Positions 1 through 12,382 of a stretch of 64,000 nt of DNA are shown piece after piece (position 1 is the stretch's first letter; every line of letters starts with the position of its first letter). The notes beneath the pieces are model-generated. The model was given only the letters and a program-made list of their open reading frames with translations. It was not told the DNA's origin and ran no database searches. Made by a program: the position numbers and the translations under genes. Location of the stretch: NCBI RefSeq assembly GCF_000024925.1, contig NC_013521.1, positions 806,001-870,000 on the forward strand. The letters are read 5' to 3'. The DNA is from Sanguibacter keddieii DSM 10542. GTDB taxonomy: Bacteria > Actinomycetota > Actinomycetes > Actinomycetales > Cellulomonadaceae.

Positions 1-230
1 GTGACCAGCTGTCCTCGTGACGGCTGCGAGGCGTCGTCAGTCGTCGGCCGAGGTCGATGCTTGCCGTCGCGTCGCGTCTAGCCTCCCGAAGAAGGTAGGC
101 TAGGGCAGGACTTTCCCGAGCGTGGGCGTCACGTGCGCCACTCGGAGTCGCCGGCCAGGTGCCGGCACGAGGCTCTGGGCGGTTCTACGACGTGCTGCGT
201 GAGCAGACCCGATCAACATTGCGAGGACCC
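1..230. other. Leader region, no gene assigned
   Basis: No convincing coding frame is seen before the small ribosomal protein gene; an upstream gene could end here but cannot be identified from this fragment. A 7-bp inverted repeat (CTAGCCT at 78-84 and AGGCTAG at 97-103) carries outward-facing TAGGCT boxes and may be promoter material. The stretch just before position 231 contains GCGAGGA, the likely ribosome-binding site of the next gene. Confidence 0.3.
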
Positions 231-329
231 ATGGGCTCCGTCATCAAGAAGCGCCGCAAGCGTATGGCAAAGAAGAAGCACCGCAAGCTGCTTCGCAAGA
301 CGCGCCACCAGCGTCGTAACAAGAAGTAG
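231..329 (+). CDS. bS22-type small ribosomal protein (AURKAIP1/COX24 domain)
   Basis: A 32-residue, extremely basic peptide that begins MGSVIKKRRKRMAKKKHRK and continues through an LLRKTRHQRRNKK tail. This pattern is the actinobacterial AURKAIP1/COX24-domain protein, known in mycobacteria as ribosomal protein bS22, which sits in the decoding region of the small subunit. More than half the residues are Lys or Arg and no fold other than a single rRNA-binding helix is expected. GAGG lies 6 nt before the ATG. It is followed at once by a strong GC hairpin, so it is probably a single-gene transcript. The gene is short and is often missed by gene callers. Confidence 0.93.
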   Translation: MGSVIKKRRKRMAKKKHRKLLRKTRHQRRNKK

Positions 330-336
330 TCTCGTC

Positions 337-360
337 CGGGCCCGGTTTCGACCGGGCCCG
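337..360 (+). terminator. Rho-independent-like hairpin after bS22
   Basis: CGGGCCCGG, loop TTTCGA, CCGGGCCCG: a perfect 9-bp stem 8 nt past the stop codon. There is no long U tract, as is usual for actinobacterial terminators. Confidence 0.75.
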
Positions 361-391
361 AGTCGTTCCCGGGGGTAGTGAGGACCACCAG

Positions 392-1441
392 ATGGCTACA
401 ACGATGCACGACGTCGCGCAGCTGGCTGGCGTCTCGATCAAGACGGTCTCGAACGTCGTCAACGGGTACCCGTACATCCGTGACACGACGCGCGACCGCG
501 TGCTCGCGGCCATCACCGAGCTCGACTACCAGATGAACGTCTCGGCCAGGAACCTCCGGTCGGGCCGCACGGGCATGATCTGCCTGGCGGTCCCGGAGCT
601 GAGCCTGCCGTACTTCGCCGAGCTCGCCGACTCCGTGATCCGCGCCGCGGACGCGGTGGGCCTCACCGTGCTCATCGAGCAGACCGGCGCGACGCGCGAG
701 CGCGAGCTCGAGGTGCTGTCGGGCAAGCGCAAGCACCTCACCGACGGGGTGATCTTCTCTCCCCTCGACCTCGGTCCCCAGGACCGCGCGGCCTTCGACG
801 TGGACTTCCCCGTGGTGCTGCTCGGCGAGCGCGTGTTCGACGTCGGGCACGACCACGTGACGATGCACAACGTCGAGGCTGCCCGGGCCGCCACGGCGCA
901 CCTCATCGCCCAGGGGCGCCGTCGCATCGCGCTCATCGGGGCCCACGTCGGCGAGGACGTCGGGTCGGCCGTGCTGCGCACGCAGGGCTACCTCAAGGCC
1001 CTCGAAGACGCAGGCATCGCCGCCGACCCCGCTCTCGTCGGCGAGGCGGGCCTGTGGCACCGCGCGGACGGCGCCGAGGCCATGCACCGCCTGCTCGACT
1101 CGGGGACGGAGATCGATGCGGTCTTCGGTCTCAACGACGCCCTCGCCCTCGGTGCGATGCACGCCCTGCACATGCGTCGGGTGTCCGTGCCGGACGAGGT
1201 CGCGGTCATCGGCTTCGACGACATCGACGAGGCCCGGTACGCCTCGCCGCCCATGACGTCGGTGTCGCCGGGACGCGAGGAGATCGCCACCACGGCCGTC
1301 CGCCTCCTCCAGGCCCGCATCGCGGCACGCGGCAGCGACGACTGGACCCCGACCTCGGTGGTCGCCGGCTTCGAGATCGTGGTCCGCGAGTCCACCGGCA
1401 CGTCCGGCTCCGGCTCAGAGCAGAGGTCCGGCGGCCTCTGA
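392..1441 (+). CDS. LacI family transcriptional regulator
   Basis: A 349-residue regulator of the LacI/GalR family. Residues 1-50 carry the helix-turn-helix and hinge helix (MHDVAQLAGVSIKTVSNVVN), and roughly 60-330 form a periplasmic-binding-protein-like effector domain. Such proteins bind palindromic operators and release them on binding a sugar. The usual N-terminal start is used, and the length is normal. No sugar gene is adjacent: the gene converges on a transporter of the RiPP-like cassette, 50 nt away. A plausible but unproven target is the arabinoside locus at 9-12 kb, which carries two LacI-type palindromes and has no regulator of its own in this window. The ligand is unknown. Confidence 0.9.
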   Translation: MATTMHDVAQLAGVSIKTVSNVVNGYPYIRDTTRDRVLAAITELDYQMNVSARNLRSGRTGMICLAVPELSLPYFAELADSVIRAADAVGLTVLIEQTGATRERELEVLSGKRKHLTDGVIFSPLDLGPQDRAAFDVDFPVVLLGERVFDVGHDHVTMHNVEAARAATAHLIAQGRRRIALIGAHVGEDVGSAVLRTQGYLKALEDAGIAADPALVGEAGLWHRADGAEAMHRLLDSGTEIDAVFGLNDALALGAMHALHMRRVSVPDEVAVIGFDDIDEARYASPPMTSVSPGREEIATTAVRLLQARIAARGSDDWTPTSVVAGFEIVVRESTGTSGSGSEQRSGGL

Positions 1442-1451
1442 GCCGGACCTC
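1423..1451. terminator. Hairpin across the lacI-type stop codon
   Basis: GAGGTCCGGC pairs with GCCGGACCTC (10 bp, 9-nt loop), and the loop holds the stop codon of the LacI gene. It lies between two convergent genes (LacI type and the MFS exporter) and could serve both. Confidence 0.6.
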
Positions 1452-1491
1452 CCTCGGGTCCCGGTTAGGACAGACGTGGCGCGCCTTCCGG

Positions 1492-2742
1492 TCACCGGTC
1501 GCGGAGCGACCTGTGTCCGATGAGCAGCGACGGCACCGCAGCGGACGCGGCGAGGACTCCCGCGACCACGAGTGCCACGGACAGGCTGGTCGCCTCGACG
1601 AGCCAGCCGAGGGCGAGCGAGCCGGCGAAGACCGAGACGTTCGCGACAGCGGACTCGAGGCTCAGCAGGGTGGCGCGCTGCGTGTCGTCCACCTGCCGGT
1701 GCAGCGTTGGCCCCTGGAGGGCGCTGACTGGTCCACCGAGGAAGAACGCGAGCGCGAAGCAGAGGACGAACCCGATGGTGGACGGCACCATCCCTGCAGC
1801 CATGATGGCTATGCCGGCGAGCAGCGACAGCAGCCCGACGGCGCGGTACCACACGTACCGTCCAGCCAGCCTGCCGCTCAGCGAGGCACCTGCTGCTGCG
1901 CTCAGCTGGGTCACGATGATGGCGACGGAGAACGCCGACGCCGCCGAGCCCGCCGAGCCGATCTCGGAGCGCATGTATAGCGGAGCGACGAGCTCGAAGG
2001 ACTGGAAGGCGGCTGCGAACAGCAACCACCGGCAGGCGAACAGCAGGAAGATCCGGTTCGTCGAGACGAGTCGGGCGGCGTCGTGCACCGCGTGCCGCAC
2101 GGTCGTGCTGCGCAGGTCAGGCTCGCGGGCCTGACTGGTCACGAGGTACAGCACCGCTACCAGGCAGACCACCTCGACCATGACGGCGACGAGAAGAGGC
2201 ACGGCCACCCCCGTCGTCTGCACGCCGGCGATCGTCACCTCGGGCGGGAGTGCTGCCGCCAGTCCGCCACCGAGCAGTGCGCCCAGTGCACCCCCGAGCG
2301 CCATGGTCGCGAAGCCGCGCCCGAGGCCACGAGACGTCGCGAGGTCGGCCTCGGCCGGAGTCGTGGCTGCGTTCCGCGTCCGTTCGACGAACCAGGCCTG
2401 CAGCGGGCCTGACTCGAAGGCCCGGCCCAGCGCGAAAACCACAGACCAGAAGATGAACTGCGGCAGCGAGGACGCGAAGAACAGGCCGGTGAAGGCGGCC
2501 CCTCGACCGAGGCACGCCGCTGCGAGGGCGGTCCGCCGGGACATCCGGTCGGAGGCGATGCCGAGGGGCACCTCGAGCAGGGCGATCGAGAGCGCACCGA
2601 CAGCCAGCACGAGCCCGACGTCTCGGACGGACAGGCCCCTCTCGCCCATGAGGATGACGAGCACCGGGAGCATCATCGACGTCCCGAGGATCTGGAGTGC
2701 CGTGAGCCCGGCGTAGCGCCGACGAACCTGCGCGACTGTCAT
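1492..2742 (-). CDS. MFS exporter, last gene of the RiPP-like cassette
   Basis: A 416-residue major facilitator superfamily protein with about 12 hydrophobic helices. The loop after helix 2 has the MFS signature A motif (GIASDRMSRR, about residues 61-70), and a long charged loop near the middle (about residues 200-220) splits the two six-helix halves. The ATG at 2742 is chosen because an upstream extension would run into the previous gene, whose stop is 14 nt away. The short gap makes this the final gene of a five-gene minus-strand operon, so the likely job is export of, or immunity to, the modified peptide made by the upstream genes. The substrate is inferred from context only; the family includes drug and metabolite exporters. 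Confidence 0.85.
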   Translation of the reverse strand: MTVAQVRRRYAGLTALQILGTSMMLPVLVILMGERGLSVRDVGLVLAVGALSIALLEVPLGIASDRMSRRTALAAACLGRGAAFTGLFFASSLPQFIFWSVVFALGRAFESGPLQAWFVERTRNAATTPAEADLATSRGLGRGFATMALGGALGALLGGGLAAALPPEVTIAGVQTTGVAVPLLVAVMVEVVCLVAVLYLVTSQAREPDLRSTTVRHAVHDAARLVSTNRIFLLFACRWLLFAAAFQSFELVAPLYMRSEIGSAGSAASAFSVAIIVTQLSAAAGASLSGRLAGRYVWYRAVGLLSLLAGIAIMAAGMVPSTIGFVLCFALAFFLGGPVSALQGPTLHRQVDDTQRATLLSLESAVANVSVFAGSLALGWLVEATSLSVALVVAGVLAASAAVPSLLIGHRSLRDR

Positions 2743-2756
2743 TGATGCTGCCCTCT

Positions 2757-3953
2757 TCAGATGTTGATCCCGTGGTGGGGGATTGGACCAGAGAATGCGG
2801 CATCTGCGCGCAGGCACGCACCGCTGTTGTGCTCCCACAGGAGTCCGTCGTCGCGCTTGGAGATCCATGAGGCGCCCCCGAGGTAGAGCTCTGCCAAGAC
2901 CTGGGGCGTCAACGAGATGTCTGGCGGTTCGAGAGCTGGCCAGACGGTTCCTGCGCCGTTCGTGACGGACAATCTCCAGGCACGTGAGTTCACGGGAAAC
3001 TCACGGTCGCTGAGTTGCAGAGTCAAGTTCACATCGGCACCGAAGGCTCTGGACTCGAAGGCTCTCACCGGATCGAGGATTCTCAGGTAGAGGCCAGGGA
3101 TCGTCGTCCCAGGGGAGTCAGGGGGGCGGGACTCGTCGAGAGGGCGTGGGCCGGAGAACACTCGGCATGAAGGGTAGGCGGCGACTATGAGGTCCCAGAG
3201 CTCTCGCTCTGCACGCACTGGGGCGCACAGGTCGAGGACCTGCAATGGCCGGCTGTTGTCGTCCCGCCGATAGGCCGCGACGGCGAACGCCTCCAGGCTG
3301 CCGTCCTGTCGGAGAAGTCTGATTGCGAATGGCTTCTCCAGGGACCCTCCCTGCTCGTCCTGCCACAACAAGTCGAGGTCCTCGGGGGTCGATGCGAGTG
3401 TTCCGACCCGCGAGGACCTAGATGACCGGAACCGCATCAATGATTCGGTCGTCGCACGGTCCAGCGGTGAGGACTCGAGAATCAGGCCAGCCGGATGTCC
3501 TGCTGGGACGCCAGCCGGAGGTCGCGGTTCGTGCAGGACCGACTGTGTAGCCATCCCTATCCCGAGCACAGAAGACTGGCGTGTACCCGCCAGCATGGTC
3601 GCCACCATGGCGTACTTCCGGGACGCGTGAGTGTCCTCCAGGAACTTCCGGAGAAGATCTCGCACGACCGGCTGCGCAGCGGTCTGGCCGTCAGAGATGA
3701 GCCACCTCACGGTTGGGACGAGCAAAGTGGCGCCGCCAGGGACTGTGAGCTCTCTGATCGGGCACGTCAGGCCCGCCGCGAGCTTCCGGACGCCTGCATG
3801 GTGCGTGAAGGCGCCGAGCGTCTCGTGGTCGGCTAGGGTCCTGAACCAGCGCGTGACGTGGCCGGGGGTGGGGTTCGCCAGTCCGTGGCCCTGCCAGGCA
3901 CGGAGGAGGTGCCGGATGTCCCGACGATCGAGGTTGGAGTAGTGCACCTTCAC
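2757..3953 (-). CDS. Eis-like tandem-GNAT/SCP2 protein with degenerate acetyl-CoA loop
   Basis: A 398-residue protein starting at GTG, 7 nt after the methyltransferase stop. By eye it follows the three-part plan of Eis-family N-acetyltransferases: first GNAT domain (about 1-155), second GNAT-like domain (about 165-285), and an SCP2-like C-terminal domain (about 290-398). The best matches to remembered Eis sequence are GLYLRILDPVRAFESR, the LAELYLGG segment, and a tail DAAFSGPIP before the C terminus. Eis uses its C-terminal carboxylate as catalytic base; here the last residue is Ile398. The motif that binds acetyl-CoA (P-x-x-R-R-x-G-x-x) is replaced at residues 85-97 by LISDGQTAAQPVV, and the Tyr-rich loop of Eis is VLGIGMAT. 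It may therefore be a pseudoenzyme or use another donor. It would act on the peptide, a self-resistance target or a partner protein; which is unknown. Confidence 0.7.
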   Translation of the reverse strand: MKVHYSNLDRRDIRHLLRAWQGHGLANPTPGHVTRWFRTLADHETLGAFTHHAGVRKLAAGLTCPIRELTVPGGATLLVPTVRWLISDGQTAAQPVVRDLLRKFLEDTHASRKYAMVATMLAGTRQSSVLGIGMATQSVLHEPRPPAGVPAGHPAGLILESSPLDRATTESLMRFRSSRSSRVGTLASTPEDLDLLWQDEQGGSLEKPFAIRLLRQDGSLEAFAVAAYRRDDNSRPLQVLDLCAPVRAERELWDLIVAAYPSCRVFSGPRPLDESRPPDSPGTTIPGLYLRILDPVRAFESRAFGADVNLTLQLSDREFPVNSRAWRLSVTNGAGTVWPALEPPDISLTPQVLAELYLGGASWISKRDDGLLWEHNSGACLRADAAFSGPIPHHGINI

Positions 3954-3960
3954 GAAAGCG

Positions 3961-4716
3961 TCAGCTCCTCGTGGCGAACAACCGGATCCGAGGACCTAAT
4001 GCTTGAGCCCGCGGTACCTCAACGACGCGAGCGTGCCGCACCAGCCCTGTCGCCTCGAACGAGCCGAGCACGTCGAGAGGATCGAGGACCCGCGTCGCGG
4101 GTGAGAAGGTCGCGAGCGTGAGCCGACCTTCTGGTCGTTCCTCCGACAGCGAGAGGTCGAAGGTGACGACGGGGCCGCTGCTCTGACGGCGTGCGGTGCC
4201 TTCGAGCCGATATGTGGTCGATCGCGTCCTGATCCATTTTGTCGGCAGGTCGACCTCGGCCGACGGCTGGGCGGTGATGCTCTGCGCGAGGGAGCGGATA
4301 TCGGGTATGTCGACGATGACTCGACCCTCACCCCGGCAGACGCGCAGGAGCTCGTGGGCCGCGCTATCCAGGTCCTCTCGGCTGAGCAGGTGTGAGTATG
4401 CGCCTCGAGGTGCTATCACGAGCTCGAACTGTTCGTCGTCGAAGGGCATCTGCCGCATGTCCCCCTGGACGAGACGCACGTCCTGCCCGGCGACACGCTC
4501 TCGAGCGCCCGCGAGCATGCCGAGCGAGATGTCGAGACCGACGCGACGAGCTGGTCTGGGAAGCTCTGAGAGCACTCGTCCGGTACCGCAGCCGACCTCC
4601 AGGATCGAGCTCGTCCCCGTGGACTCGGACCTCCAGAGGTCGAGGTCGGCATCTCCTCCGTGGAAGGCGAGGTCGTAGTACCTGCTGATCGGAGAGTAGA
4701 AGTCGGCTGCCATCAT
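3961..4716 (-). CDS. Class I SAM-dependent methyltransferase of the RiPP-like cassette
   Basis: A 251-residue Rossmann methyltransferase. Motif I is ILEVGCGTGRVL (about residues 37-48), followed by the acidic VGLDISLGML strand, the QGDMRQMPF segment (motif II region) and an LRVCRGEGRVIVDIPD strand-turn, the usual order for class I enzymes. The C-terminal half forms the substrate region and is not matched to a named family. The ATG at 4716 overlaps the stop of the radical SAM gene as ATGA, so the two are translationally coupled; the second ATG (4713) could also be used. In this context the likely substrate is the processed peptide (side chain or C terminus), but the sequence does not show which atom is methylated. 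Confidence 0.85.
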   Translation of the reverse strand: MMAADFYSPISRYYDLAFHGGDADLDLWRSESTGTSSILEVGCGTGRVLSELPRPARRVGLDISLGMLAGARERVAGQDVRLVQGDMRQMPFDDEQFELVIAPRGAYSHLLSREDLDSAAHELLRVCRGEGRVIVDIPDIRSLAQSITAQPSAEVDLPTKWIRTRSTTYRLEGTARRQSSGPVVTFDLSLSEERPEGRLTLATFSPATRVLDPLDVLGSFEATGLVRHARVVEVPRAQALGPRIRLFATRS

Positions 4717-5882
4717 GGCGCGGTCCCATCGGCGCGTGGAGCGTGGATCATGTCGAGCAAGTTGGCATCGAACGAGTCCTGCACGAGACCAGCGTGGTCG
4801 AGGTCCGGGGAGTGGTCCGAGGAGAATCCTTGGCAGGATTGCCATTTCTCGCCGCCGCCCGACAGGTACCCCGTTTCGACGGTCCCCATGGCGTACTCCG
4901 GCCGGCCCGCCGTCTCCCAGCTGCTGTACAGCGTGCCGTCTGGTCCGATCACCGCGCCGCCCTCTCCGGGCGGTGGCCCGCAGAACGAGCACCCTCCGTT
5001 CCTGGGGCGGGCCATCGTGAACCCGGCTGCGATCGACTCTCGCGCCATGGCCAGCAAGGTGTCGACCGTGCGCTTGACCGATGCCCCTGAGGATGACGAG
5101 AGATTCCACCGGTAGTCGCGGATGACAGCCAGGTCGAGCGTGATCTGAGAGGCATCGAGCTCAGCAGCCTGTTCGAGGAACCTCGGGAGCCCTTCCACGG
5201 TCTCAGAGGTGACGTTCAACCTGATGCTGATCTGCAGAGAGGTGGCCTCCTGCACGCGCCGAAGATTCTGGATGATCCGGTCGAAGGTCGGTCGTCCGCC
5301 TGCTCGAGTGGTACGCATGGTGTCGTGGTGCTCTCGCGCTCCGTCGAAGGTGACCTGGACGCTCTTGAGCCCAGATTTCCAGAGTCGAGTCGCTCGTGAT
5401 TCTGTCAGCAGATAACCGTTGGTGATGATCGAGGCGTGGCTCAAGACGTCGGAGAGGTCTTCAAGAACGGTCAAGCATGGACCAAAGCTCATGAGTGGTT
5501 CGCCGCCGAAGAGCAGTATTTTCGCAGTGCTTCTCTGCTGGGATCGCATCCTTCGCCTGATGTACGCCGTGATTTTCAAAGCGGATTCGTCGGTGAGTTG
5601 TGTCCGAGCTATCCGGTCGGGTGGCCCGTCTCCACCGTCGGCCACGTTCTGGAAGCAGTAGTAGCACCCGAAGTTGCAATCAGAAGAGGTGAGGATGGTC
5701 GCAGAGAAGGAGGTCTCGAGAGGAGGGTTCATGAGCCCTCGCTCCTCCAGGCGCCTCGTGAGCCCGGTTAGTGCGTGGCTGCTCTCTGCAGAGTCATCAA
5801 GAGTCCGTGGGACTCTGACGGTCGCCTTCGGCGTGAGGCACCAGATGGATGCGTCGGTTTTCAGGAATCGTACGGTACTCAC
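4713..5882 (-). CDS. Radical SAM peptide maturase with atypical SPASM-like tail
   Basis: A 389-residue radical SAM protein. Cys69, Cys73 and Cys76 (CNFGCYYC) bind the SAM-reactive [4Fe-4S] cluster; GGEP at 126-129, ITNGY at 153-157 and VTFDG at 177-181 are the expected SAM-binding and barrel elements. The C-terminal third looks like a SPASM/twitch domain that begins at Cys298-x-x-Cys301, but the position that normally gives the next ligand (G316 plus five) is Ser321 and the later CxxC cluster motif is absent; only Cys350 remains. The GTG start has GGAG 5 nt upstream, inside a hairpin. It lies 75 nt after a two-Cys peptide gene, so the likely reaction is a radical crosslink or epimerization on that peptide. 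The product type cannot be read from sequence. Confidence 0.88.
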   Translation of the reverse strand: MSTVRFLKTDASIWCLTPKATVRVPRTLDDSAESSHALTGLTRRLEERGLMNPPLETSFSATILTSSDCNFGCYYCFQNVADGGDGPPDRIARTQLTDESALKITAYIRRRMRSQQRSTAKILLFGGEPLMSFGPCLTVLEDLSDVLSHASIITNGYLLTESRATRLWKSGLKSVQVTFDGAREHHDTMRTTRAGGRPTFDRIIQNLRRVQEATSLQISIRLNVTSETVEGLPRFLEQAAELDASQITLDLAVIRDYRWNLSSSSGASVKRTVDTLLAMARESIAAGFTMARPRNGGCSFCGPPPGEGGAVIGPDGTLYSSWETAGRPEYAMGTVETGYLSGGGEKWQSCQGFSSDHSPDLDHAGLVQDSFDANLLDMIHAPRADGTAP

Positions 5883-5883
5883 A

Positions 5884-5930
5884 TGGGCTCCAGATGTTTC
5901 CTCGGCTCGTCAGGATCCATCTGGAGCCCA
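5884..5930 (-). promoter_or_regulatory. 13-bp hairpin covering the radical SAM ribosome-binding site
   Basis: TGGGCTCCAGATG (5884-5896) and CATCTGGAGCCCA (5918-5930) are perfect inverted repeats with a 21-nt loop. On the transcribed (minus) strand the second arm contains the CTGGAG ribosome-binding site and ends 1 nt before the GTG start. The hairpin can act as an attenuator or mRNA stabiliser that lets the peptide gene be expressed more than the enzymes, and it can hide the ribosome-binding site. Which of these occurs is inference. Confidence 0.8.
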
Positions 5931-5957
5931 CGGCGGTCGACGTTCGCGTGAGAGATG

Positions 5958-6053
5958 TCAGCAGATGACGTGGTTGACTCCGCAGTCCTGGAGCTCGTAG
6001 GTGATCTCGACGACCTCGAGTTCGTCGACGGTCTTGACGGGAATACTTTCCAT
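5958..6053 (-). CDS. Candidate RiPP precursor peptide, 31 residues
   Basis: A 31-residue open frame beginning MESIPVKTVDELEVVEITYE and ending LQDCGVNHVIC, with Cys24 and C-terminal Cys31. The N-terminal two thirds are acidic and helix-prone, like a leader; the last eight or nine residues have the look of a core. AGGGGG lies about 9 nt before the ATG, one of the stronger ribosome-binding sites in the window. It is the first gene of the minus-strand cassette, 75 nt before a radical SAM gene with a hairpin between them. This order is typical of radical-SAM RiPP operons. No named precursor family is recognised. Function as a precursor is inferred from size, position, composition and neighbours. 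Confidence 0.8.
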   Translation of the reverse strand: MESIPVKTVDELEVVEITYELQDCGVNHVIC

Positions 6054-6417
6054 TCTTTGCCACCCCCTCTCGTGTGATTGTCAGCACACTACGACCGAGC
6101 ACTGGCGGGCAGAAGAAGGTCGAGAAGAGTTGAGTGCGAATCCGTGCCACCTGAGTGTTCGGAGGGGCAGCTGGTAGGTGTTTCGCGCCCCTGTGTCCGG
6201 GATCTAGGTCATGTCGTGAGTGGTTGCTCACCGGTCGGTCGGCAAGATCTTGACCATCGGAGTGCGCGGCGTGCACATCCGGGTCGTTGGACGCGTGGGA
6301 CGCGAGCCGGCCCGTTGGGCTGGTCTCGCGCCTGCCTGTTTACCCGAGGGATCGCCACTGGACCTCGGCGGTCGTCCGGGGGAGGGTGGGGGTCTGTGCA
6401 CGAGACGAGGGAGTGAC
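6054..6417. promoter_or_regulatory. Divergent intergenic region between RiPP-like cassette and DLH gene
   Basis: A 364-nt gene-free stretch that must hold the promoter of the minus-strand peptide operon and the promoter of the plus-strand hydrolase. A short dyad, GTGTG (6072-6076) and CACAC (6085-6089) with 8 nt between, sits 19 nt before the peptide start and could be an operator. No strong -35/-10 pair can be named with certainty. No riboswitch or RNA gene is seen. Confidence 0.4.
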
Positions 6418-7011
6418 ATGGCTGAGGTAGTGCTGTTCCACCACGCGCTGGGGCTGACCCCGGGCGTCGAGACCTTCGCCGAGCTGCTGCGCGCAGCCGG
6501 TCACACCGTGAGCACGCCGGACCTGTTCGAGGGGCGGACCTTCGACGACATCGAGGCCGGCGTCGACCACGCCTCCGAGGTGGGCTTCGGGACGATCATG
6601 CGGCGAGGCGCCGAGGCCGCCGAGGGCACCCCTGCCGGTGCGGTGTACATCGGGTTCTCCCTCGGTGTCGTCCCGGCGCAGCGGCTCGCCCAGACCACCC
6701 CGGGTGCCGGCGGCGCAGTGCTGGTGAGCTCGTGCCTGCCGGTGGGCGAGTTCGGCGAGAGCTGGCCGGAGGGGGTCCCGGTCCGTGTGCTCGCGACCGC
6801 CGAGGACCCGTACTTCGTCGACGAGGGGGACATCGACGCCGCACGCCAGCTGGCCGCCGACTCGCCCGACGCCGAGCTGGTGCTGTTCCCCGGCAGCGGC
6901 CACCTGTTCGCCGACCCCGGGCACGCGTCCTACGACGCCGAGACCGCCGGGCTGCTCGTCGACCACGTGCTCGAGCTGCTCGCCCAGGTCGACGCGACCG
7001 CGCGGGGCTGA
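6418..7011 (+). CDS. Dienelactone hydrolase family protein
   Basis: A 197-residue alpha/beta hydrolase of the dienelactone hydrolase type. It starts MAEVVLFHHALGLTPGVETFAELLRAAG, has the small-fold features of the family (VYIGFSLGVVPAQ nucleophile-elbow region, where the usual Cys/Ser position reads FSLG, a DPYFVDEGD acidic region and the SGHLF histidine near residue 163), and fits the family length of 190-240. The ATG at 6418 is preceded by GAGGGAG; an open frame continues upstream but without a better start. It stands alone between a divergent intergenic region and a large bidirectional terminator. The substrate is unknown; many such proteins are general esterases. Confidence 0.82.
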   Translation: MAEVVLFHHALGLTPGVETFAELLRAAGHTVSTPDLFEGRTFDDIEAGVDHASEVGFGTIMRRGAEAAEGTPAGAVYIGFSLGVVPAQRLAQTTPGAGGAVLVSSCLPVGEFGESWPEGVPVRVLATAEDPYFVDEGDIDAARQLAADSPDAELVLFPGSGHLFADPGHASYDAETAGLLVDHVLELLAQVDATARG

Positions 7012-7062
7012 CCTGCGCGACCGCGCGGGCTGACGGCGCCGCTCGCCACTGCCGAGCGCACC

Positions 7063-7104
7063 ACGACGGCGGGGCCGGCACACCTGTGCCGGCCCCGCCG
7101 TCGT
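7063..7104. terminator. Bidirectional terminator, 20-bp stem
   Basis: ACGACGGCGGGGCCGGCACA pairs perfectly with TGTGCCGGCCCCGCCGTCGT around a 2-nt centre. It lies between the convergent hydrolase and sugar-permease genes and should stop both transcripts. Confidence 0.88.
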
Positions 7105-7124
7105 CGTCCGTGCTGGAGGGGTGA

Positions 7125-8018
7125 CTACTGGCCGGCGATGCCGGTCGTGGAGATCCCCTTGATGATCTGGCGCTGGAAGAACAGGAACGCGAGGATCAGC
7201 GGCAGCGCGGCGAGCACGGCTTGCGCCATGTTCTGGGCGTACTGGATGCCGTAGGCGCTGATCACCGTCTGCAGGCCGACGGGCAGCGTCATGAGGTCGG
7301 AGTCGTTGATGACGATGAACGGCCAGAGGAAGTTGTTCCACGCGCCGATGAACACGAAGATCGACACGGCCGCGAGGATCGGGCGGGACAGCGGCACGAT
7401 GATCTGGCGGAGGATCCGGAGCCGGCTCGCGCCGTCGACGAGGGCGGCCTCCTCGAGCTCGCGGGGGATCTGGTCGAAGAACTTCTTGAGGATGAACACC
7501 ATGGGCGCCGCGACGATCTGCGGCAGGATCACGCCCCAGTAGGTGTCGACGAGGTTGAAGTCGAGCATCTGCTGGAACAGCGGCACGATGAGGATCTGCC
7601 CGGGCACCATGATCGAGCCGATGATGACGGCCATCGCGACCTTCTTGCCCTTGAAGTCCAGGCGGGAGAGCGCGTAGCCGGCGAGGGCGCTGATGACCAG
7701 GGTGATGAGCGTGACGGCCGTGGCGGTGATGAGGCTGTTGAGCGCCCACCGCGGCACCTGGCTGGACGAGAGCACCCGGGCGTAGGCGTCGAGGGTGAAG
7801 CCGCTCTCCGGGATGATCGTGATCGGCGCGGCGGCTGCCTCGGCCTCCGTCTTGAGCGAGGTCATCACGGCCCACAGGACCGGCACGAGCCAGCCGAAGG
7901 CGAGCACCGCGATGACGACGTACGAGGCGATGCGTCCGGCGCGAGGCTTGCGCCGCGGCTTCCTCGTGGCCCCGCGCGCGGAGGTGACGGGCGTGCGTTC
8001 GAGAGTCTGAGCAGTCAC
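7125..8018 (-). CDS. Sugar ABC transporter permease, MalG type
   Basis: A 297-residue inner-membrane subunit of a CUT1-family carbohydrate importer. After a basic N terminus there are six membrane helices; the EAA loop that docks the ATPase is present (EAALVDGASRLRILRQIIVP, about residues 196-215). The start is GTG at 8018, which overlaps the stop of the upstream permease as GTGA. The gene is third in the operon binding protein - permease - permease. No ATPase gene follows, so the transporter probably uses a shared MsiK-like ATPase coded elsewhere, as is common in actinobacteria. The sugar is likely arabinose-containing because of the divergent GH51 gene; this is inference. Confidence 0.93.
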   Translation of the reverse strand: MTAQTLERTPVTSARGATRKPRRKPRAGRIASYVVIAVLAFGWLVPVLWAVMTSLKTEAEAAAAPITIIPESGFTLDAYARVLSSSQVPRWALNSLITATAVTLITLVISALAGYALSRLDFKGKKVAMAVIIGSIMVPGQILIVPLFQQMLDFNLVDTYWGVILPQIVAAPMVFILKKFFDQIPRELEEAALVDGASRLRILRQIIVPLSRPILAAVSIFVFIGAWNNFLWPFIVINDSDLMTLPVGLQTVISAYGIQYAQNMAQAVLAALPLILAFLFFQRQIIKGISTTGIAGQ

Positions 8019-8971
8019 GACCGTGCTCCTCTGCGGTTGATGACGAGGATGTTGACGAGGGACACGACGACGATGAGGAAGAAGAAGATGTACGAGATCG
8101 CCGACGCGTAGCCCAGCCGGTACCCGGTGAAGCCGACCTCGTAGACGTACTGGAGGATCGGGCGGGTCGCGCCGCCGGGGCCACCACCGGTCATCTGGTA
8201 GATCTGGTCGAAGACCTTGAGCGAGGCGAGCAGCTGCAGGATCGACACGAGGACGGTCGTCGGGCCCAGCTGGGGCAGCGTGATCGAGAAGAACTGGCGG
8301 CGGGTGCTCGCGCCGTCGAGCGCGGCCGCCTCGTACTGGTGGTCCGGGATGTTCTGGAGGGCGGACAGGTAGAGCAGGAAGTTGAAGCCCACGGTCCACC
8401 AGACGGTGGTCACCACGACGGACATCATCGCGGTCGACGGGTCTTGCAGCCAGGCCTTCGGCTCGATCCCGACCCAGCCGAGGACCTCGTTGACCAGGCC
8501 GAGCTGCGGGTTGTACATCCAGAGCCAGAACTGCGAGACGACGGTCGAGGCGAGCAGGAACGGCATGAAGAACGACAGCCGCCAGACCCACTGGCCCTTG
8601 AGGTTCATGTTGACCAGGGTGGCCAGCAGGAGGGCCACGACGACGAGCGGGATGGTGCTGAGCACGGTGAACACGACCGTGTTCCACAGCGACTTCCACA
8701 TCTCGGAGTCGGCGAAGGCCTCGGTGTAGTTGGCGAACCCCACGAGCTCGGACCCGGCGCCGGTGAGGCTGCGCCCGGTGAAGCTCATGAAGAACCCGGA
8801 GACGGTCGGCCAGACCAGGAACAGCAGGAAGGCGATCGCGAACGGCGCCATGTACATCCAGCCGCGGATGGTGTCGGAGCGCCGACGGGCGCTGAGCGAG
8901 CGCGCGGCGGCGTCGGGTGCCGCGGGGGAGGGGGGTGCGTCTGTGCGCCCCTTCAGGTCAGGTGTGGTCAT
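8015..8971 (-). CDS. Sugar ABC transporter permease, MalF type
   Basis: A 318-residue membrane permease, partner of the MalG-type protein downstream. It has a variable, proline/alanine-rich N terminus of about 35 residues, then six helices and an EAA motif (EAAALDGASTRRQFFSITLP, about residues 219-238). Length and topology match CUT1 UgpA/MalF-like proteins without a long periplasmic loop. It starts 28 nt after the binding-protein stop and overlaps the next permease by 4 nt, so the three are co-translated. It forms half of the membrane channel for the sugar delivered by the lipoprotein. Confidence 0.93.
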   Translation of the reverse strand: MTTPDLKGRTDAPPSPAAPDAAARSLSARRRSDTIRGWMYMAPFAIAFLLFLVWPTVSGFFMSFTGRSLTGAGSELVGFANYTEAFADSEMWKSLWNTVVFTVLSTIPLVVVALLLATLVNMNLKGQWVWRLSFFMPFLLASTVVSQFWLWMYNPQLGLVNEVLGWVGIEPKAWLQDPSTAMMSVVVTTVWWTVGFNFLLYLSALQNIPDHQYEAAALDGASTRRQFFSITLPQLGPTTVLVSILQLLASLKVFDQIYQMTGGGPGGATRPILQYVYEVGFTGYRLGYASAISYIFFFLIVVVSLVNILVINRRGARS

Positions 8972-8999
8972 GATGAGACTTCCTCGTCCCTCTCGTCGG

Positions 9000-10388
9000 T
9001 CAGACCGGGCTCGGCCGGGACATCAGGGTGTTGATGCGGTTCACGAACGCGTCGAGACCGTCGGCGGGGGCCACAGACCCCATGTAGACGCTCTGCATGG
9101 CGTCGCCGAAGTGCCGGTGCAGGTCGGACCCCGACCCGCTGAACCAGGCCTCGGGGTCGTAGACGACGTGGTCGACGGCGTCGGCGTAGTCGCGCTGGGG
9201 GACGAGCTCCTGGTAGGCGGGAGACTCGAGGACCGGCGTGTAGGCGGGGATGTGCCCGGCCTCGGCCCACTGGAGCGATGACTTGAGGAGGTCGGCCACG
9301 AACTCGTGCGACTTCTCGCGCTTCCAGGCGTCGGGGGACGACTGGTGCGGCAGCACGAAGGAGTGCGAGTCGCAGAAGGCCACGGGGTTGTCGAAGACGG
9401 TCGGGATGACCTGCATCCCGAGGTCGATGTCGTTCTCCTTGAAGGTGCCGATCTCCCACACCCCGCCGAGGAACAGGCCGGTGCGGCCGGTCGCGAACTC
9501 GGAGATCGCGGTGCCGCCGTCGTTGCTGCTCGAGGCGACCTCGTCGTCGAGGAGGGACTGGATCCACTCGAGGGACGTCATCGCGGCGTCGCGGTCGTAC
9601 TGGACCGTGCCGCCCTCGGGGAAGGACATCTCGGCGCCGGTCTGCTTGTACCAGGTGTAGAACATGCGCCACATGTTCGAGGGGTCGTTGAGGAACCCGT
9701 AGGCGAGCCCGTTCCCGCCGGTCACCTCGGCCATCGCGAGCGCGACGTCGCGGAAGCCCTCGGGGGAGTCGGCGCCGGTGATGAGGCCGGCCTCGTCGAG
9801 CACGCCGGCCTGGCCGGCGGCGGTCTTGTCGTAGTAGAGGACGAAGGGGTGCGTGTCGATCGCGACCGACAGGACGCGGTCGCCGTTGAGGCCCTTCTGC
9901 CACACCAGCTCGGGGACGGTCTCGGCCGAGACGCCGAGGTCGGCGAGGAGGTCGGCGTCCCAGGCGTCGAGCAGGCCGCCGGGCGCGTAGCCGGGGACCC
10001 GGGCGCTGTGCATCACGGCGATGTCGGGTGCGCGGCCGCCGGCCGAGGCCATGGCGAGCTTGGTGTAGTACGGCGAGCCCCAGCCGAGGATGGTCTGGCG
10101 GACCGTGACGTCGGTGTTCGCGGCGGTGAAGTCGTCGATCATCGTCGTCAGGGTGCGGCCGTCGCTGCCGGTGAGGAGGTGCCAGAAGCTCAGCTGGTCC
10201 TGGGGGCGGGCGACCGTGCCGCAGCCGCCGAGGGCCATGAGCGCGGCGCCGCCGGCCATGAAGGCGCTGCCGCGCAGGAACGAGCGTCGGGACAGGCCGC
10301 CTGCGTCGGGTCCGTCGTCTCGTCCGGGACGGGGGTGCGCCGGGCTGGTGCTGGCGCTCCGTCGGTCTGGGATAGCCCAGTCGTGCAT
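9000..10388 (-). CDS. Tat-exported sugar-binding lipoprotein of ABC transporter
   Basis: A 462-residue extracellular solute-binding protein (family 1 type). Residues 33-39 are a twin-arginine motif (SRRSFLR), followed by a hydrophobic stretch and a lipobox LGGC with Cys56 as the lipid-anchored residue, so it should fold in the cytoplasm, leave by Tat and sit on the outer face of the membrane. The body has the periplasmic-binding fold (FWHLLTGSDG, then TGRTGLFLGGVWEIGTFKEND). The ATG at 10388 has GGAG upstream; a longer frame exists but would cover the operator. It heads the sugar-uptake operon, and is transcribed away from the GH51 gene. The ligand is probably an arabino-oligosaccharide or arabinose. 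Confidence 0.92.
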   Translation of the reverse strand: MHDWAIPDRRSASTSPAHPRPGRDDGPDAGGLSRRSFLRGSAFMAGGAALMALGGCGTVARPQDQLSFWHLLTGSDGRTLTTMIDDFTAANTDVTVRQTILGWGSPYYTKLAMASAGGRAPDIAVMHSARVPGYAPGGLLDAWDADLLADLGVSAETVPELVWQKGLNGDRVLSVAIDTHPFVLYYDKTAAGQAGVLDEAGLITGADSPEGFRDVALAMAEVTGGNGLAYGFLNDPSNMWRMFYTWYKQTGAEMSFPEGGTVQYDRDAAMTSLEWIQSLLDDEVASSSNDGGTAISEFATGRTGLFLGGVWEIGTFKENDIDLGMQVIPTVFDNPVAFCDSHSFVLPHQSSPDAWKREKSHEFVADLLKSSLQWAEAGHIPAYTPVLESPAYQELVPQRDYADAVDHVVYDPEAWFSGSGSDLHRHFGDAMQSVYMGSVAPADGLDAFVNRINTLMSRPSPV

Positions 10389-10506
10389 AGCCACTCCTTC
10401 GTTGCTACGTGAACGCGCTGCACCGGTGCAGCGCGGCCTGGTCGTCCGTCCGTCCCGCTCGGAGCCGAGGCTCGTCAGGGTCGGTCTCGAGACCGCCGCC
10501 CGTGGT

Positions 10507-10522
10507 TCTTCATCGTTGTACA
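10507..10522. promoter_or_regulatory. LacI-type operator, transporter side
   Basis: TCTTCATCGTTGTACA matches the reverse complement of the GH51-side operator at 14 of 16 positions. It lies about 120 nt upstream of the binding-protein start. Central CG and TACA/TGTA arms are typical of LacI/GalR operators. Confidence 0.6.
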
Positions 10523-10707
10523 AAACTCGGGTAGACAGCACAGTAGCCCCCTCTGCCGGGTTTTGCCGACCCCTCGCCGCAGATCCGGGCGCAACCCGCC
10601 CGCTCTGCGCGGTGTGTCCGGTGTCACGTGGCGCCCGGGCCCCGTGGCCGTCCCGGTGATGGCGCTCGCGGCCTGTTGACGGTGCCGGGGGGGTGGGGCA
10701 TCATCGC

Positions 10708-10723
10708 TCTACAACGATGTAGA
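10708..10723. promoter_or_regulatory. LacI-type operator, GH51 side
   Basis: TCTACA-ACGA-TGTAGA has perfect 6-bp arms. It lies 82 nt before the GH51 start, where it could block transcription. The regulator that binds it is not adjacent; the LacI-type protein at 392-1441 is one candidate. Confidence 0.68.
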
Positions 10724-10804
10724 CACGACGGTCCGGACGAGCCAGGCTCGACCGGCCAGTCCGCCGTCCGGCACCGAGGCCGGGCGTCCCCTGACAGGAG
10801 CCCC

Positions 10805-12382
10805 ATGAGCACCCCAGCCCCTTTCCGCAGCGCCTCCGACGGCACAGCCTCCGACGGCACCGCCGCCGTCACCCTCACACTGGACCCCGCCTTCACGGTC
10901 GGCCCGGTCCGTCGTCGGACCTTCGGGTCCTTCGTCGAGCACCTCGGTCGCTGCGTCTACACGGGGATCCACGACCCCGAGCACGAGAGCGCCGACGAGA
11001 ACGGGTTCCGCGGCGACGTCGTCGAGCTGACCCGAGAGCTCGGCGTCTCGACGGTGCGCTACCCGGGCGGGAACTTCGTGTCGGGGTACCGCTGGGAGGA
11101 CGGCATCGGCCCGAAGGACCAGCGCCCCACCCGCCTCGACCTCGCCTGGCACTCGAGCGACCCCAACCTCGTGGGTGTCGACGAGTTCATGCAGTGGGCG
11201 CGCAAGACCGGCGTCGAGCCGATGATGGCGGTGAACCTCGGGACGCGCGGCATCCAGGAGGCCCTCGACCTGCTCGAGTACTGCAACGTGCCCGGCGGGA
11301 CGCACTTCTCCGACCTGCGCCGCGCCAACGGTCACGAGGAGCCCTACCGCGTGAAGATGTGGTGCCTCGGCAACGAGATGGACGGTCCGTGGCAGATCGG
11401 CCACAAGACCGCCGAGGAGTACGCCCGCCTCGCGACCGAGACGGCCCGGGCCATGCGCATGGTCGACCCGAGCATCGAGCTCGTGGTCTGCGGCTCGTCG
11501 TCGTCGGCGATGGAGACCTTCGGCGCGTGGGAGGCCACCGTGCTCGAGGAGTCCTACGAGCACGTCGACTACATCTCGGCCCACGCGTACTACTTCGAGG
11601 AGGACGACGACCTCGGGTCCTTCCTCGCGTCGTCGGTCGACATGGACCACTTCATCGAGTCCGTGACCGCCGCAGCCGACTACGTCCGTGCCGCCGGCAA
11701 GCACACCAAGCGCATCAACATCTCCTTCGACGAGTGGAACGTCTGGTACCAGAAGCGCGCCGAGTCGGTGCCGCCCACGGGCGACGACTGGCCGGTCGCC
11801 CCCGTCCTGCTCGAGGACCGGTACAACGTGGCCGACGCCGTGGTGGTGGGGAACCTGCTCATCTCGCTGCTGCGCAACACCGACCGCGTGCACGCCGCCT
11901 CGCTCGCCCAGCTGGTCAACGTCATCGCGCCGATCATGACCGAGCCGGGCGGCCGGTCGTGGCGCCAGACCACCTTCCACCCCTTCGCCCAGGCCTCCCA
12001 GCACGCCGTCGGCGACGTCCTTCAGGTCGGCATCGACGCGCCGACCTACGAGACCGCGCGGTTCGGCGAGGTCCCCGTCGCCGACGCGGTCGCCACCCGC
12101 GACCCCGAGACCGGTGCGGTCTCGCTCTTCACTGTGAACCGGTCGACGACCGAGACGACCACGGTCACCGTGGACCTGCGCGCGCTGCGACGCGAGGCCG
12201 ACGGCCAGGGCGTCGACGTGGTGGAGGCCCTCACCCTGGCGAACCCGGACCACACCTGGTCCGCGACCGCCGACGACGAGACCTCGGTGCTGCCGCAGGA
12301 CAACAGCACCGCCACGGTGGACGACGGTGTGCTCACCGTCGAGCTCCCGCCGGTCTCGTGGACCATGGTCCGCCTGGCCTGA
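10805..12382 (+). CDS. Alpha-L-arabinofuranosidase, GH51
   Basis: A 525-residue glycoside hydrolase family 51 enzyme that removes terminal alpha-L-arabinofuranosyl groups from arabinan, arabinoxylan or their oligosaccharides. Family marks are FGSFVEHLGRCVYTGI near the N terminus, VRYPGGNFVSGYRWEDGIGP, the acid/base Glu in CLGNEMDGPWQIG (about residue 190) and the nucleophile Glu in NISFDEWNVWY (about residue 312); a C-terminal beta-sandwich follows. There is no signal peptide, so it acts in the cytoplasm on imported oligosaccharides, which fits the divergent ABC importer. AGGAG lies 5 nt before the ATG. Expression is probably repressed through the palindrome at 10708-10723. Confidence 0.95.
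   Translation: MSTPAPFRSASDGTASDGTAAVTLTLDPAFTVGPVRRRTFGSFVEHLGRCVYTGIHDPEHESADENGFRGDVVELTRELGVSTVRYPGGNFVSGYRWEDGIGPKDQRPTRLDLAWHSSDPNLVGVDEFMQWARKTGVEPMMAVNLGTRGIQEALDLLEYCNVPGGTHFSDLRRANGHEEPYRVKMWCLGNEMDGPWQIGHKTAEEYARLATETARAMRMVDPSIELVVCGSSSSAMETFGAWEATVLEESYEHVDYISAHAYYFEEDDDLGSFLASSVDMDHFIESVTAAADYVRAAGKHTKRINISFDEWNVWYQKRAESVPPTGDDWPVAPVLLEDRYNVADAVVVGNLLISLLRNTDRVHAASLAQLVNVIAPIMTEPGGRSWRQTTFHPFAQASQHAVGDVLQVGIDAPTYETARFGEVPVADAVATRDPETGAVSLFTVNRSTTETTTVTVDLRALRREADGQGVDVVEALTLANPDHTWSATADDETSVLPQDNSTATVDDGVLTVELPPVSWTMVRLA

Follow-up and report, generated by a model that had tools for sequence, protein, structure and literature searches.

A horizontally acquired peptide and radical SAM cassette of Sanguibacter keddieii that probably encodes a member of an unnamed RiPP precursor family

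Ranthipeptide maturases, which act on ribosomally synthesized and post-translationally modified peptides (RiPPs), combine a radical S-adenosylmethionine (SAM) core with a C-terminal auxiliary-cluster domain and an N-terminal RiPP recognition element that binds the leader. Their thioethers go to a non-alpha carbon, those of sactipeptides from Cys sulfur to an alpha-carbon; a full SPASM domain carries a seven-Cys auxiliary motif. One solved example, entries 5why and 5wgg, we take to be CteB, the thioether maturase of a SCIFF-type ranthipeptide, whose system has six Cys in about 45 residues. The locus described here is a five-gene cassette on the minus strand at positions 1492-6053 of a 64,000-nucleotide stretch of Sanguibacter keddieii DSM 10542 (contig NC_013521.1, 806,001 to 870,000; this whole stretch is hereafter the window). 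It encodes a short peptide, a radical SAM enzyme, a methyltransferase, an Eis-fold protein and a major facilitator superfamily (MFS) exporter, and it is very probably a RiPP cassette. By analogy it would work like a ranthipeptide or sactipeptide pathway, the thioether being only predicted, and no named subfamily fits. A further likeness is to the streptococcal ranthipeptide NxxcA/NxxcB, also a RiPP with a Cys-Asn pair two residues apart, although the order is N-x-x-C there and C-x-x-N here, and the comparison concerns this motif (PMC8326336).

The precursor gene (5958-6053, minus strand) encodes 31 residues, MESIPVKTVDELEVVEITYELQDCGVNHVIC, with a leader containing the beta-strand-prone LEVVE, a core Cys24-Gly-Val-Asn27 and a C-terminal Cys31. 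A position-specific profile built from 18 precursors of related loci, with the window peptide excluded, places this peptide at rank 1 of 1,762 scored open reading frames (ORFs) and first among 1,327 ORFs of 20-60 residues, scored or not. The background consists of the ORFs of the window and of 16 stretches of the same genome, one of which includes the window's first 4 kb. A core-only profile is equalled by none of the 1761 null ORFs and a leader-only profile by 15 of them, and training on EVVAH-type precursors alone still leaves no null ORF that matches the window peptide. Leave-one-out runs were made for 9 of the 18 precursors used in training, and five of these outscored every one of the 1761 null ORFs; the precursor of locus L033, which has no leader site, was kept out of the training set. 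Furthermore, homologues of the radical SAM gene do not in general lie without such a peptide, and precursor and modifying enzyme form a conserved pair: 28 of the 30 related loci were found to have a short Cys peptide near the gene, a count that carries no chance control. Taken with the ranking, this bears out the proposal, made in a first-pass annotation of the DNA, that the cassette is RiPP-like and its precursor genuine. That annotation spoke of a two-Cys peptide; both Cys are present, but the relatives back only the first, Cys24, as shared. It is highly improbable that the peptide ORF is a chance frame and the radical SAM enzyme acts on another substrate: the frame is only 31 residues long and was matched by no NCBIfam or Pfam model, yet it leads a ranking from which it was itself excluded, and its position and adjoining hairpin are common to the relatives.

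The related loci were drawn from a scan of genome contigs that gave at least 80 loci, of which 23 actinobacterial ones were taken (L022-L044). With seven others (L012-L016, L018, L110) the set comprises 30 loci besides the window; these represent 29 genomes, since L034 and L039 are from one strain. Dropped from the set were L017 (on the same contig as L040), the contig fragments L019 and L020, the distant L021 and L111, which served as tree outgroups, and the distant loci L045-L101, from which L045, L046, L048 and L071 were also used as outgroups. The relatives' peptides were chosen partly by eye from Cys-filtered ORF listings, and some of them are separated by other genes from the radical SAM gene downstream, at distances of up to about 2.7 kb. 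Enzymes were compared in a 27-row alignment omitting L022, L024 and L042, chosen out as near-duplicates, and L043, whose start is doubtful. In the tree the window pairs with L012, whose genome belongs to the same family (support 99/98); the two then join Lentzea and Actinokineospora sequences (97/94). The precursor type also occurs in loci of Streptomyces, Kitasatospora, Catenulispora, Amycolatopsis and Virgisporangium, among others.

Most of these precursors begin with an acidic N-terminus and a strand-prone motif, which a core containing at least one Cys follows. The leader motif is recognizable in 25 of 30 loci, counting the DVVAH of L013 and L014; it reads EVVAH in streptomycetes and IEIIA, IEVLD, IEIVE or LEVVE in the deeper branches and the window. 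Cores include WCGVH, WCGVN, GCIIN, CGVQ, GCLVH, CGTN (L012) and the CGVN of the window, C-x-x-[NHQ] being the commonest form (18 of 30 loci). Six pairs of relatives were compared for the ratio of nonsynonymous to synonymous substitution rates (dN/dS), two of them identical and one repeating another; the three informative pairs gave 0.08/0.41, 0.03/0.29 and 0.09/0.23. Tandem core repeats occur in the precursors of L015, L025, L033, L039 and L043, those of L033 (9653-9883) and L043 (9431-9721) having Gln in place of Asn or His at +3 (CGIQIGA, CGVQIGA, CGVQLG). Such repeats, observed in several relatives, argue against the peptide serving as a scaffold for a small redox cofactor of the PQQ or mycofactocin type that is not secreted. 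So do the MFS genes at 25 of the 30 related loci, the MFS gene that ends the present cassette, and a gene set without a dehydrogenase. The very short precursor and a pair of M16 peptidases at one related locus would suit a cofactor, but this explanation is quite improbable.

The radical SAM gene (4713-5882, minus strand, GTG start) encodes 389 residues matched by Pfam Radical_SAM. An N-terminal domain of three strands and two helices (about 1-50) precedes the CxxxCxxC motif (C69, C73, C76) and a short auxiliary domain, in which C298, C301 and C350 are present in 27 of 27 rows, whereas the window has Ser321 where 23 of 27 rows have Cys. No further C-terminal column of the alignment holds at least 9 Cys. 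The ranthipeptide pairing of a radical SAM core with an auxiliary domain is present, the latter domain being partial, and neither the window protein nor its 27-row family carries the full seven-Cys SPASM motif. A frameshift behind the short C-terminus was ruled out, the short end being common to the 27 rows. The AlphaFold2 model (pLDDT 85.9) finds its best solved fold in 5why/5wgg, with an alignment reaching residue 381-383, and the same entries are top by sequence; the structure-comparison lists re-examine 1000 chains, so that absence from them is uninformative.

The curated families are only distantly approached. CefB (NF038107) is the best NCBIfam match, at 127 of 600 bits, followed by TIGR04463 at 102.7 of 525; none of the best 25 families reaches its cutoff, and seven other radical SAM rows scanned in the same way gave no E-value better than about 1e-36. 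The CefB precursor has Cys at every fifth position, in contrast to the window peptide, which is not Cys-rich, with Cys at 24 and 31. The TIGR03974 maturase of SCIFF stands at 51.3 of 425 bits; here the precursor has two Cys in 31 residues, one of them shared with relatives, and the auxiliary domain is short, with three invariant Cys. For the ranthipeptide enzyme PapB (NF047865) the score is 67.8 of 340 bits. By the SCIFF, PapB, CefB and TIGR04463 cutoffs the cassette falls in no named subfamily, although the locus does resemble a ranthipeptide or sactipeptide pathway. A thioether at the C-x-x-N unit is, by analogy, our tentative choice, held with a little less than even confidence. It is possible, though rather doubtful, that the RiPP cassette performs other radical SAM chemistry, namely epimerization, ring closure through a carbon-carbon or an ether bond, or, as in sulfatase maturases, oxidation of Cys24 itself: the thioether maturase of 5wgg/5why tops both the fold and the sequence comparison, and the core profile around Cys singles out the window peptide, the presence of Cys itself, as a search criterion, being no evidence.

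Between the peptide and the radical SAM gene lie 75 nucleotides that contain an RNA hairpin (5884-5930, minus strand), recognized from an inverted repeat and from folding. The 105-nucleotide stretch with this repeat has a minimum free energy of -44.7 kcal/mol (z -4.3), equalled by none of 200 shuffles, and the 3' arm includes CUGGAG, the Shine-Dalgarno-like stretch of the radical SAM gene. Among 21 peptide-radical SAM gaps, 17 have z below -2, with a median of -3.1 over all 21, compared with 3 of 60 random 90-mers of the window. These gaps come from the 21 of 31 loci, window included, in which the peptide is directly upstream, with start codons chosen by hand; seven loci with genes between peptide and enzyme, two without a peptide, and L036 are omitted. 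The hairpin sequences differ between loci, and the place is common to them. From this position we infer a control of dose, in which the precursor would be abundant and the enzyme scarce. An Rfam scan gave no match, and a search found one terminator-like site, within chance, and no promoter-like sites.

The cassette arrived as a unit. Relative to genome G205 of the same genus it is one clean insertion of about 4.9 kb (1454-6400, no strand): blastn homology covers window positions 68-1453 and 6401-11997, and the two blocks are separated by 111 bp in G205, where the matches to the flanking LacI gene (91% identical) and hydrolase gene (85%) are 154 bp apart. As these ends were set by blastn, the real ones are possibly off by tens of bases or more. 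The five minus-strand ORFs have the coordinates first reported, with a 4-nucleotide overlap between the radical SAM and methyltransferase genes and gaps of 7 and 14 nucleotides before and after the Eis-like gene; by eye, Shine-Dalgarno-like stretches precede the starts of the peptide, radical SAM, Eis-like and MFS genes, while that of the methyltransferase is unclear. The low G+C content named by the first-pass annotation was likewise recovered, with 31 of 60 at 5521-5580; the cassette averages 65.4%, whereas the window has 72.3% on the right side of it and 69.7% on the left. None of the 282 sliding windows of 1170 bp to the right is as low as the radical SAM gene (61.8%). Ranked by codon usage among 190 genes sampled from 15 stretches (20 kb each) of the same genome, the radical SAM gene falls at percentile 3.2, the Eis-like gene at 4.2 and the methyltransferase gene at 11; the MFS gene is not odd (34). 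The suspected horizontal transfer is therefore backed by the empty site in a genome of the same genus, the codon usage of three genes and the lack of a radical SAM match at E 1e-20 in five other genomes of the genus. As to the vehicle, a mobile element was rejected (the cassette genes include no integrase, and neither a tRNA nor a direct repeat pairing both boundaries was seen), as were plasmids (four distant tblastn matches, none at 80% coverage) and phages (two weak matches to viral contigs among the matches listed). The insertion separates a LacI-type regulator (392-1441) from a hydrolase and what appears by eye to be an operon for a sugar ATP-binding cassette transporter (6418-10259); these are contiguous in G205.

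The remaining genes differ from the peptide and its enzyme in how widely they are shared. The class I SAM-dependent methyltransferase (3961-4716, minus strand, 251 residues) matches Pfam Methyltransf_25 (E 9.4e-20), and its best NCBIfam match, the daptide methyltransferase NF041820, stays below cutoff (48.1 of 175 bits); methyltransferases of a similar general type occur near the radical SAM gene in three related genomes. The MFS exporter (1492-2742, minus strand, 416 residues, ATG at 2742; Pfam MFS_1, E 9.3e-25) was matched in BLASTP by none of the neighbour proteins from the other loci, and the MFS genes present in those 25 loci are other ones. For the Eis-like gene the sole match at E 1e-25 among 296 genomes of the class is the own genome. 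In class- and order-wide samples, the radical SAM gene is carried by 9 of 394 genomes at E 1e-25 and, with a profile at E 1e-50, by 4 of 396, the own genome counted each time. Thus, the idea of a conserved five-gene combination did not survive inspection of the relatives' neighbourhoods and is rejected for the loci examined: the shared unit is peptide, hairpin and radical SAM gene, usually plus an MFS gene, and the full five-gene set is seen here only.

The Eis-like protein (2757-3953, minus strand, 398 residues, GTG start) had been read as an acetyltransferase of the Eis type. Its full-length fold model retains the Eis fold, but the acetyltransferase signatures are lost. The HRRRG acetyl-CoA loop, whose columns are kept in 21, 21, 23, 22 and 23 of 24 family rows, is TAAQP in the window protein, the catalytic Tyr (24 of 24 rows) is Ser, and the terminal Phe that is an Eis signature (23 of 24) is Ile. 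Because loop, Tyr and Phe are all gone, the protein is, judged by sequence, quite probably not an acetyltransferase. The loss of all three signatures and a patchy distribution of the radical SAM gene (2 of 221 genomes of the family, the own included) could also indicate a decaying import in which the entire unit is possibly silent. This is unlikely, as all five frames are open, the cluster cysteines of the radical SAM enzyme are intact, and the Eis-like gene combines its full-length model with a coding-like G+C of 0.76 at third codon positions versus 0.52 at position 2. Such a probable pseudoenzyme, encoded beside a peptide gene, would allow a test of whether an acetyltransferase scaffold has been turned to another use. 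The own genome holds two more SCP2_2 (Eis-type) genes (G000:C1:678495-678818 and 2729843-2730151), and one of these, when aligned, retains the HRRRG loop and the terminal Phe.

In the account that we favour, with a probability of roughly 0.62, the acquired RiPP cassette acts as follows, and we infer every chemical step. The 31-residue precursor would be made in excess, while the hairpin over the ribosome-binding site of the radical SAM gene would keep enzyme levels below those of the peptide. The leader strand LEVVE may be captured by the N-terminal domain of the radical SAM enzyme, whose core and one auxiliary cluster would then carry out a radical modification at Cys24. The likeliest product, by analogy, would be a sulfur-to-carbon (thioether) ring from Cys24 to or near Asn27 in Cys-Gly-Val-Asn. 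The methyltransferase may cap or decorate the peptide, and the Eis-fold protein may serve as a non-acetylating binding partner for escort or self-protection. The leader would be trimmed by a protease encoded elsewhere in the cell, and the product exported by the MFS protein.

Several observations weigh against this account. The cassette has no protease gene, the auxiliary domain has three invariant Cys, and the N-terminus, a candidate RiPP recognition element, is barely covered by the fold comparison (three strands and helices at 5-47 in the model, alignment from residue 6 or 1). Because the relatives' peptides were selected for a Cys, finding one in them adds no independent evidence, and the count of 28 of 30 is uncontrolled; two relatives, L018 and L110, yielded no peptide. 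With N, H or Q at +3 from Cys in just 18 of 30 loci, an Asn crosslink is not forced. The deep-branching precursors of L034, L040, L032 and L038 were equalled by 8, 19, 9 and 5 of 1761 null ORFs. Four of the 21 gaps (L013, L014, L016, L043) have no significant hairpin, and the control for hairpins was random 90-mers, mostly coding, rather than other intergenic gaps. Finally, the closest radical SAM proteins are 38-41% identical, and the whole cassette has no close relative among the loci found with which dN/dS of the window peptide could be measured directly.

The precursors themselves gave no match above any cutoff in NCBIfam (11 scanned) or Pfam (7), and no description met in searches of an open-access library was recognized as the present precursor-radical SAM family. 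Part of the family may be listed in the decRiPPter study, whose supplement gives precursors of candidate Streptomyces RiPP families (PMC7794033). It is possible, with some doubt, that the loci constitute a distinct actinobacterial RiPP class with EVVAH/EVVE leaders, single-Cys C-x-x-[N/H/Q] cores and an uncurated radical SAM family with a short auxiliary domain, into which a dead Eis-fold protein and a methyltransferase were recruited here for maturation or self-protection. The precursor-enzyme family is unnamed by the curated models used, and its simple one-Cys cores, some in tandem, allow a direct test of the chemistry by co-expression; the window offers a compact version of the locus, inserted as a unit.

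A few features of the relatives stand apart. The nearest relative (G001) has, some 1.1 kb upstream of its peptide, an ORF with the look of a transposase end (L002:1-156, minus strand). In L029 (9843-17886) and L035 (9717-9794) the radical SAM gene adjoins another peptide type, RC[VI]GxGG[YF]H[DN]LGDY; L029 holds an M16-type peptidase pair with BLAST-cluster mates in L035, followed by a RamC/LanC-like synthetase, perhaps a hybrid or adjoining class III lanthipeptide cluster. Small proteins of one BLAST cluster lie within 18 of the 30 related loci, for example L022:5066-5311 (minus strand), the sole one scanned, which scored 81.3 bits against the cutoff of 30 of the Aroma-sacti model NF045560 (Aroma-sacti NF045560/NF045559). 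In contrast to the precursors, no Cys was seen in the 40-residue tails of these proteins, and none of the proteins was noted in the window. By eye, 17 of 21 end in EV[QE][AG]H and a short tail such as xxAGGALF (12 under the narrower pattern E[VI]xAH). This ending resembles the EVVAH of the nearby precursors, and the common motif suggests a shared leader end or protease site.

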